Source: Solimonas terrae
Lineage (GTDB): Bacteria; Pseudomonadota; Gammaproteobacteria; Nevskiales; Nevskiaceae
Length of the DNA: 64,000 nt
Reading direction: 5' to 3'
Assembly: GCF_011067135.1 (NCBI RefSeq)
Contig: NZ_JAAMOW010000008.1
Location: 124,001-188,000 of the forward strand
Shown: piece by piece, positions 38,624-39,978 of the stretch
How positions within the stretch are numbered: position 1 is the first letter of the stretch
Layout of the letters: each line of letters begins with the position of its first letter
Notes under the pieces: generated by a model
What the model was told of the DNA's origin: nothing
Database searches by the model: none
The model's input: only the letters and a program-made list of their open reading frames with translations
Translations under genes and position numbers: made by a program

Positions 38624-38652
38624 TTGCCCAAAGGACAATTTCGCCTTACCTT
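38624..38652 (+). promoter_or_regulatory. Probable metZ promoter ahead of the riboswitch
   Basis: TTGCCC (38624-38629), a 17-bp spacer and TACCTT (38647-38652) would start transcription at about 38658-38660, which is exactly where the 5' strand of riboswitch helix P1 begins. The agreement supports both calls. Confidence 0.5.
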
Positions 38653-38658
38653 TGCGCG

Positions 38659-38726
38659 GCGCCGATTTGCTCCCAGCTTGCAGGCGCGGCGTTTGTGGAA
38701 CGCCAATAAATGTCGCTAAACAGGGG
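38659..38726 (+). ncRNA. SAM-II (SAM-alpha) riboswitch aptamer upstream of metZ
   Basis: The order of elements matches the SAM-II aptamer. P1 5' strand GCGCC-type is at 38659-38663, then GATTT, loop bases TCCC (38671-38674) and TTGCA. The P1 3' strand GGCGC is at 38683-38687. The conserved ATAAATGT.GCTAAA is at 38706-38720, followed by CAGGGG. The loop TCCC can pair with GGGG at 38723-38726 to make the pseudoknot. Compared with the crystallised SAM-II RNA, an extra hairpin GGCGTT/AACGCC (38688-38704) sits between P1 and the conserved ATAAA. Being directly before a methionine-synthesis gene, it should sense S-adenosylmethionine and lower expression. Confidence 0.82.
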
Positions 38727-38730
38727 CGTG

Positions 38731-38767
38731 AGCCCGTTTGGCATGAATCGATGCTGGCGGGCTTTTT
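38731..38767 (+). terminator. SAM-II expression platform: terminator with competing antiterminator
   Basis: AGCCCG (38731-38736) pairs with CGGGCT (38758-38763), with an inner GCAT/ATGC stem, and is followed by a run of T to 38767. The same GCCC can instead pair with GGGC at 38724-38727 across a GTGA tetraloop. That uses the very GGGG needed for the aptamer pseudoknot. Ligand binding would therefore free the terminator arm and stop transcription before metZ. Confidence 0.75.
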
Positions 38768-38790
38768 CATTGCCCGCAGGAGTGAAGGCA

Positions 38791-39978
38791 ATGCAGGACT
38801 TCTTCGATCCGCAGTGGGGCAGTGCGACGCTCGGCGTGCGCGCGGCGGAACCCCGTACGGCGAACCGCGAGCACTCGGCGGCCTTGTCGCTGACCTCCAG
38901 CTATGTGTTCGAGAGCGCGGCACAGGCGGCGGCGGTGTTTTCCGGCGCCGAACCCGGCTACATCTATTCACGCTTCACCAATCCCACCACGGAAGCATTC
39001 GAGAAGCGTCTGGCGGCGATGGAAGGTGGCGCGAGTTGCGTGGCGACCGCGAGCGGCATGGCGGCGGTGCTGACGCTTTGCCTGTCGCTGCTCAGGCAGG
39101 GTGATCACATCGTCAGCTCGCGCGGCCTGTTCGGGTCGACGATCAGTCTGTTCAACAATGTGCTGAGCAGGTTCGGCATCGGCGTCAGCTATGTCGATCA
39201 GACCGATCTCGCTGCCTGGGAGCAGGCGATCCAGGCCAACACGCGCCTGCTGTTTGCCGAGACACCGACCAATCCGCTGGTCGAGATTGCCGACATTGCG
39301 GCGCTGGCCGACATCGCGCACCGCCATGGCGCCTTGCTGTGTGTCGACAACTGCTTCCTGACGCCCGTGCTGCAGCAGCCGCTCAGGCTGGGTGCCGACT
39401 TCGTCATTCATTCGGCGACCAAGTATCTGGACGGCCAGGGCCGCTGCATCGGCGGCGCGATCGTCGGCGATGCCGAACGGGTCGGCAAGGACGTATTCGG
39501 ATTCATGCGCACCGCCGGACCGTGCCTGAGTCCGTTCAATGCCTGGGTGTTCCTCAAGGGACTGGAAACGCTGTCGGTGCGGATGAAAGCGCATTGCGAG
39601 AATGCGCATGGTCTTGCCGAATGGCTGAGCGAACAGGCCAGCGTCAGGCGCGTGTTCTATCCGGGCCTGGCAAGCCATCCGCAACACGAGCTCGCGCGCC
39701 GCCAGCAGTCGGGCTTCGGTGGTGTGCTGGCCTTCGAAGTCGAGGGCGGCCGCGAGGCCGCCTGGCGCGTCATCGATGCGACGCGGCTGATCTCGATCAC
39801 CGCCAATCTTGGTGACACGCGCACGACGATCACGCATCCGGCGACCACCACGCATGCACGCATCAGTGCCGAAGCGCGCGCCGCTGCCGGCATCGACGAG
39901 GGCCTGCTGCGCATTGCCGTCGGTCTGGAGGATCTGAAGGATCTGACCGCCGATCTCGCCCGCAGCCTGCACCTCTAG
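38791..39978 (+). CDS. metZ: O-succinylhomoserine sulfhydrylase
   Basis: This PLP enzyme of the Cys/Met metabolism family makes homocysteine directly from O-succinylhomoserine and sulfide. The 395-aa protein has YSRFTNPTT, the PLP Lys211 in HSATKYLDGQGR, and RTAGPCLSPFNAW, the stretch typical of MetZ rather than MetB. The ATG at 38791 follows CAGGAG at 38777-38782. Expression is probably SAM-controlled. Its stop codon TAG is partly made by an inserted 230-bp element. Confidence 0.92.
   Translation: MQDFFDPQWGSATLGVRAAEPRTANREHSAALSLTSSYVFESAAQAAAVFSGAEPGYIYSRFTNPTTEAFEKRLAAMEGGASCVATASGMAAVLTLCLSLLRQGDHIVSSRGLFGSTISLFNNVLSRFGIGVSYVDQTDLAAWEQAIQANTRLLFAETPTNPLVEIADIAALADIAHRHGALLCVDNCFLTPVLQQPLRLGADFVIHSATKYLDGQGRCIGGAIVGDAERVGKDVFGFMRTAGPCLSPFNAWVFLKGLETLSVRMKAHCENAHGLAEWLSEQASVRRVFYPGLASHPQHELARRQQSGFGGVLAFEVEGGREAAWRVIDATRLISITANLGDTRTTITHPATTTHARISAEARAAAGIDEGLLRIAVGLEDLKDLTADLARSLHL

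Follow-up and report, generated by a model that had tools for sequence, protein, structure and literature searches.

Class II riboswitches for S-adenosylmethionine (SAM), known as SAM-II (RF00521; SAM_alpha or metA motif), have been reported outside the alphaproteobacteria, the gamma- and betaproteobacteria included, and their link to terminators is likewise in print (accessible parts of PMC1273637, PMC2258182 and PMC2704228). In Sinorhizobium, where metZ is also under SAM-II control, termination was predicted, and a small RNA (sRNA) of the expected size was more abundant in a medium taken to reflect high SAM levels, according to the accessible text of PMC9373788. The crystal structure of a SAM-V riboswitch shows that the strand leaving helix P1 forms a stem-loop, P3, after which adenines face the minor groove of P1; in its accessible part, the same report states that P3 is absent from SAM-II (PMC6061858). 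A further candidate, the betaproteobacterial metXZ RNA element, was described in 2014 as a pseudoknot formed by regions 1-4 and 2-6, followed by a terminator and located before metX or metZ. As far as the accessible part of their paper extends, Leyn et al. assigned it no ligand and reported SAM_alpha in the Rhizobiales and Rhodobacterales only (PMC4239095). Finally, the Rfam family RF02424 (Bp2_287) has been depicted near purF, metZ and metX (accessible part of PMC3521395). Here, we analyze a 64,000-nucleotide (nt) stretch of the genome of Solimonas terrae (contig NZ_JAAMOW010000008.1, positions 124,001 to 188,000), hereafter called the window. Judged by sequence comparison, its positions 38659-38767 are a SAM-II riboswitch that precedes metZ and is equipped with a terminator, a possible antiterminator and a conserved promoter.

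Comparison with related leaders reveals P1, P3, conserved strands of the SAM pocket, a terminator and a shared promoter at this locus, and we consider it very probable that metZ is preceded by a SAM-II riboswitch that has a P3 hairpin inserted at the open end of P1 and acts as a transcriptional OFF switch. Its elements, all on the forward (+) strand, follow each other in the order P1, GAUUUG, a CCC run, GCUUGCA, P1, a 17-nt hairpin, AAUAAAUGUCGCUAAA, GGGG and terminator, such that the core motifs GAUUUG, GCUUGC, the A-rich L3 and GCUAAA appear in that sequence. The 5' strand of P1 (GCGCC, 38659-38663) pairs with the 3' strand (GGCGC, 38683-38687) at all five positions in eight of eight aligned leaders; only one of these pairs varies, and P1 covariation therefore says little. 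L1 (GAUUUG, 38664-38669), a pocket strand of SAM-II, is invariant across the 38 rows of our model alignment A3, and UCCC (38671-38674), the putative 5' strand of the pseudoknot P2, across eight insert-bearing rows; its partner would be GGGG (38723-38726). The conserved GCUUGCA (38676-38682) also belongs to the 5' strand of P2, whereas GCUAAACAGGGG (38715-38726) combines pocket nucleotides with the 3' strand of the pseudoknot and the 5' arm of the antiterminator. A first-pass annotation, made from the letters of the window, had already located GATTTG, GCTTGCA, AATAAATGTCGCTAAA (38705-38720, beginning with L3, AAUAAAU, 38705-38711), P1, the hairpin and the terminator, and each of them lies where it had placed them. 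Folded as a unit, the aptamer (38655-38729) is no more stable than shuffled sequences (z -0.15), so that its support comes from comparison rather than from folding energy.

The assignment to SAM-II, also proposed by the first-pass annotation, was examined with covariance models. An Rfam scan of the entire window yielded no SAM_alpha hit at the gathering score (36 bits). A model of our own, built from A3, for which 38 of 39 listed rows were used, all insert-bearing leaders from outside the host order (Nevskiales in the NCBI taxonomy) and mostly betaproteobacterial, with P1 as its sole structure, matched positions 38658-38722 at 42.5 bits (E 2.4e-11 in 145 kb, E 7.3e-10 in the entire genome). 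The same model also recovers relatives without the insert, and a single core thus unites both forms. It found no SAM-II core in ten metZ leaders labelled as lacking one (best score 11.5 bits). Its next match in the genome (21.7 bits, E 0.0024) sits within a long open reading frame and appears to be fortuitous; the other SAM_alpha matches in the genome (12.4-13.7 bits) were likewise dismissed as chance hits.

Why the Rfam model misses the window becomes apparent when leaders with and without the insert are compared. In two sets of metZ leaders from the same genus and family, the SAM_alpha cut-off was passed by 6/10 and 4/6 insert-less sequences, with scores of up to 43.4 bits, but by 0/9 and 0/2 insert-bearing ones. 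Among other groups, nine further insert-less loci all gave full-length matches (23.3-42.2 bits, three above the cut-off), whereas none of five further insert-bearing loci and none of 17 mostly betaproteobacterial insert-bearing loci reached it. The failure of SAM_alpha to detect the window riboswitch is therefore attributable to the 17-nt hairpin between P1 and AAUAAAU.

This hairpin, GGCGUUU-GUG-GAACGCC (P3, 38688-38704), which the first-pass annotation had mentioned last and which we regard as the remarkable part of the leader, is real, since its sequence changes among relatives while its pairing is kept. It folds with -7.6 kcal/mol (z -2.95), a value reached by none of 200 shuffles. In eight aligned insert-bearing leaders, its five inner pairs show 12 cells with changes on both sides (0/500 shuffles; at most four with slid partners) and a covariation score of 0.372 (0/500), although the test counts the 8-base-pair (bp) hairpin of genome G008 as partly unpaired, as MAFFT misplaces it; the two outer pairs never vary. 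(Here and below, G numbers denote genomes, L numbers loci and g numbers genera.) Across 73 insert segments reaching from P1 to AYAAAU, the mean z relative to shuffles was -2.7, with 65 of the 73 below -1. These comprise 13 rows from the host order, with L010 and L011 sharing one hairpin, and 60 others, mostly betaproteobacterial and drawn from L091-L170 after setting aside 15 loci. Fourteen of the latter lack P1; the other one, L146, does bear the insert (61.6 bits) and was excluded in error, its locus being cut too short for our script. P3 follows the P1 strand without a spacer and is separated from AUAAAU by a single A; it would thus stack under P1, pointing away from the ligand pocket.

The distribution of the hairpin is patchy. 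Among the 11 genomes of the window genus, five carry it (G000, G001, G003, G007 and G008), five have SAM-II without it and the remaining one, G009, shows neither form, such that P3 is missing from 5/10 congeneric SAM-II leaders and an Rfam-detectable SAM-II occupies the same place in insert-less sister species. On a tree of 46 MetZ proteins (G062, with 76 residues only, was left out), the insert requires at least five changes, gains or losses, and the well-supported branches alone force five. Within the host order, the core pattern occurs in 29/85 genomes and the insert in 11 of those 29; two more carriers, G061 and G065, fall outside the core pattern. Upstream of the metZ riboswitch of G061, on the same strand, we also noted a match to the Xanthomonas sRNA sX9 (RF02228; L050:301-376, minus strand; 53.9 bits, cut-off 44). 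In the host class, which as drawn includes betaproteobacterial families, 90/369 sampled genomes contain the exact core pattern, with a true insert in the window's own genome only. The first-pass annotation had considered SAM-II in a gammaproteobacterium noteworthy; as its occurrence in this class was already known, that part is not new.

The order of Noviherbaspirillum shows the core in 126 of 300 sampled genomes and the insert in at least 13 among the matches listed, with inserts longer than the pattern allows, such as that of Ralstonia (L111), falling outside this search; Noviherbaspirillum autotrophicum carries the insert in two copies and lacks it in a third. A phylum-wide sample searched with the gamma-type pattern gave the core in 9/299 genomes and no new insert carrier, and the alpha-type pattern matched 7/240 alphaproteobacterial genomes, none with an insert, which is too few to call the insert absent from that group. 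The insert is a minority form. Overall, at least 115 loci fit the insert pattern, the named ones being mostly betaproteobacterial; P1 is of the GCGCC/GGCGC type in 96 of the 115 listed and not in 19. In betaproteobacteria, the insert turns up repeatedly in front of metX, metZ and metH, and ten hand-picked proteins (of 60) encoded behind insert-bearing loci were MetX (five), MetH (two), MetZ (two) and a cystathionine gamma-synthase-type enzyme (one).

Several leaders depart from this scheme. In G029 (L258:300-440), P1 and GCTAAA are separated by some 80 nt that contain two perfect hairpins, the second of which consumes the AUAAAU strand; this is an extreme case of insertion at this site. Four insert-bearing riboswitches of genus g8 (L018, L019, L020 and L025) have replaced the GA of GAUUUG by CC, AC or CU while retaining UUUG. 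In G014 (L056:230-470), some 150 nt containing repeat-like hairpins and another CGCTAAAAGGGG come after the SAM-II core, as though a repeat element had inserted between the aptamer and its platform. In genus g6, the metZ leaders of G015 and G035 (L256:266-300 and L042) contain GATTTC, GCTTGCGGGC and GCTAAG, lack an A-rich L3 and continue with a hairpin and a T run, suggesting a reduced or degenerate SAM-II-like element. Judged by eye, four betaproteobacterial loci (L099, L103, L107 and L122) seem to carry, besides the insert between P1 and L3, another small hairpin within L1, e.g., TGGTTTAACCA.

The expression platform was compared in the same manner. A scan of the window leader for consensus promoters and terminators found nothing. 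Yet, as the first-pass annotation had anticipated, a putative promoter (38624-38652; TTGCCC at 38624-38629, a 17-nt spacer and TACCTT at 38647-38652) would place the transcript start close to P1, and TTG-(16-19 nt)-TANNNT ends 6-8 nt before P1 in 27/28 SAM-II leaders of the family. By comparison, TANNNT stands 3-9 nt upstream of randomly chosen points at a background rate of 0.0185, with the 28 leaders being related rather than independent. For the intrinsic terminator (38730-38767; stem 38730-38764, U run 38763-38767), likewise foreseen, the segment 38729-38767 folds with -19.5 kcal/mol (z -3.63; 1/200 shuffles as good), and the covariation score in 21 leaders is reached by 1/500 shuffles. 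Upstream of it, the predicted antiterminator (38715-38742; -14.4 kcal/mol, z -3.05) forms one stem in which GCUAAAC..GGGC pairs with GCCCGUUUGGC (38732-38742), the latter also lying within the 5' arm of the terminator. The GGGC-GUGA-GCCC pairing suggested earlier exists as its inner part, but the full stem is longer, joining 38715-38727 to 38732-38742 and thereby taking up GCUAAA. In 21 leaders, 92.3% of its cells are paired, compared to at most 56% with slid partners, and a pre-terminator stem using GCUAAA occurs in leaders from six genera of the family as well as in G037 of another family. The proposal that pocket, antiterminator and terminator compete for the same bases in mutually exclusive pairings thus stands up to comparison, and SAM should favor the terminator.

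We envisage that RNA polymerase starts close to P1 and that P1 and P3 would fold first, with P3 stacking under P1, in the position that P3 has in SAM-V, and leading the chain into AAUAAAU. In the presence of SAM, presumably the ligand of the window leader, GAUUUG, GCUUGC and GCUAAA..GGGG would close the pseudoknot around it. The antiterminator could then not form, because it needs exactly GCUAAAC..GGGC, leaving GCCCGUUUGGC free for the terminator, such that metZ would not be transcribed. Without SAM, the nascent RNA would instead form the antiterminator and metZ would be read. Termination at this leader is accordingly expected to depend on SAM.

Several observations weigh against this interpretation. 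A permissive search with the Rfam SAM-II model, the check suggested by the first-pass annotation, gave only an insignificant match (14.7 bits, E 0.53 in 301 nt) limited to the P1 half, an outcome that the annotation had regarded as contradicting the assignment and that we trace to the insert. The pseudoknot is short, its UCCC/GGGG pairing includes one G-U pair, and it is possible but invariant in close relatives and hence devoid of covariation. For P3, the number of pairs with changes on both sides (five) was matched by 77/500 shuffles. The antiterminator carries a 2-nt bulge in the window, was not found in the leaders of G041, G052, G056 and G057 from another family and covaries no better than shuffles in 21 leaders (163/500 for paired cells, 176/500 for the score), because the invariant pocket supplies its 5' arm. 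In genus g9 (G018, G061 and G062), our script detected no convincing terminator. Moreover, when 38715-38767 is folded by free energy, the terminator prevails with -21.3 kcal/mol, compared to -14.4 kcal/mol for the antiterminator (38715-38742). As the terminator is favored even without SAM, read-through would have to be kinetic, and timing would matter.

Given its inserted helix, the leader could also be viewed as a SAM-V riboswitch (RF01826) that acts at the level of translation. The hairpin indeed occupies the position of the SAM-V P3, and according to the accessible part of the structural report (PMC6061858), SAM-II and SAM-V have superimposable SAM pockets. However, no SAM_V match was listed even at E values of up to 10, metZ leaders without the insert give SAM_alpha matches, and the aptamer is followed by a transcription terminator, with the Shine-Dalgarno sequence (AGGAG, 38778-38782) located beyond it, 52 nt past GGGG and not occluded by the aptamer. 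We therefore rejected membership in SAM-V, which we consider highly improbable.

The location of the insert inside the aptamer raises the question of whether the ligand has changed, with the extra hairpin contributing to a new specificity, for instance for S-adenosylhomocysteine, and in the four g8 insert carriers GAUUUG is, in addition, without its GA. In the window, however, every pocket strand is unchanged, the targets are still methionine synthesis genes, as would fit feedback by SAM, and the inserts vary freely in sequence and length, unlike a binding site, making a switch of ligand very unlikely. A scenario in which the hairpin is a disabling insertion into a decayed riboswitch, leaving the terminator to act alone, would be in line with the clearly disturbed leaders of the family (the long insertion in G014, the lack of AYAAAU in G015 and G035). 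Decay would not lead the Solimonas-like genus to keep its pocket letters invariant while the hairpin changes with its pairing retained, and we rate this scenario as marginally less probable still. The best explanation is that P3 is a structural add-on to a SAM-II riboswitch that comes and goes in evolution without a change of ligand.

The flanking genes, purF and metZ, are both confirmed by NCBIfam profiles. The gene behind the riboswitch, metZ (38791-39978, + strand), encodes O-succinylhomoserine sulfhydrylase (NF006003, 670 bits, cut-off 522; TIGR01325, 573 bits, cut-off 510), in agreement with the target named by the first-pass annotation. An ATG within L3 (AAUAAAUG) starts a 27-codon frame (38710-38790) that runs across the terminator in phase with metZ and has no Shine-Dalgarno sequence before it.

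In openly licensed PMC text, figures not covered, we found no description of SAM-II with this helix or of a SAM-II identity of the metXZ element or RF02424. As far as our searches reach, what is new is that a helix has been inserted recurrently, that Rfam does not see it and that it coincides with the SAM-V P3, together with the proposed identity of these two orphans. A group of SAM-II riboswitches thus escapes the standard Rfam model, and in many betaproteobacteria and some gammaproteobacteria methionine genes therefore look unregulated or the riboswitches carry other names, such as the metXZ element or RF02424. The insert also blurs the line between SAM-II and SAM-V, which has been drawn by whether P3 is present, and within one genus, leaders bearing and lacking the hairpin form natural pairs on which the effect of a captured helix on a pseudoknot switch can be tested. 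Much more tentatively, and with more doubt than conviction, we suggest that the turn between P1 and L3 of SAM-II may be an evolutionary docking site for unrelated hairpins, used in several Nevskiales lineages (at least five changes) and many betaproteobacteria. SAM-V might then be one old outcome, the two forming one class split only by helix and expression platform, and P3 might tune folding speed or SAM affinity or offer a handle to a second signal, such as a protein, a pause or another ligand.

The window leader shares with SAM-II the P1 helix, a possible pseudoknot, the GAUUUG/GCUUGC/GCUAAA core, a promoter just before P1, a terminator platform and a methionine gene as its target; it differs in the extra helix between P1 and L3 and in being missed by the Rfam model. 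With SAM-V, as described in the accessible part of PMC6061858, it has in common a P3 hairpin directly after the 3' strand of P1, followed by the L3 adenines, but SAM-V is translational and its P3 comprises 3 bp, compared to 7 bp in the window leader, which has no SAM_V match. The metXZ element, to the extent that its accessible description allows comparison, has the same topology and position as insert-bearing SAM-II leaders. One metX leader each from Ralstonia (L111) and Cupriavidus (L095) contains a SAM-II core with an insert, and the metXZ element is probably SAM-II. RF02424 is annotated as a candidate sRNA of Burkholderia; it matches SAM-II leaders on their opposite strand at 6/14 loci (E 1.3e-5 to 2.4) and weakly at 3/11 in another set, in all cases below its own cut-off of 70 bits. 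The strongest of these antisense matches is L139:3403-3545 (+; E 1.3e-5), and the others, several of them weak, include L206, L208, L209, L111, L163, L052, L055 and L057. Where its consensus is printed, reverse complementing gives GCGTCGATTTGATTTCAGCTTGCGGACGC, AAACAGCTAA and a terminator hairpin, as in a SAM-II leader with its terminator, and RF02424 is thus probably a SAM-II riboswitch read on the wrong strand.
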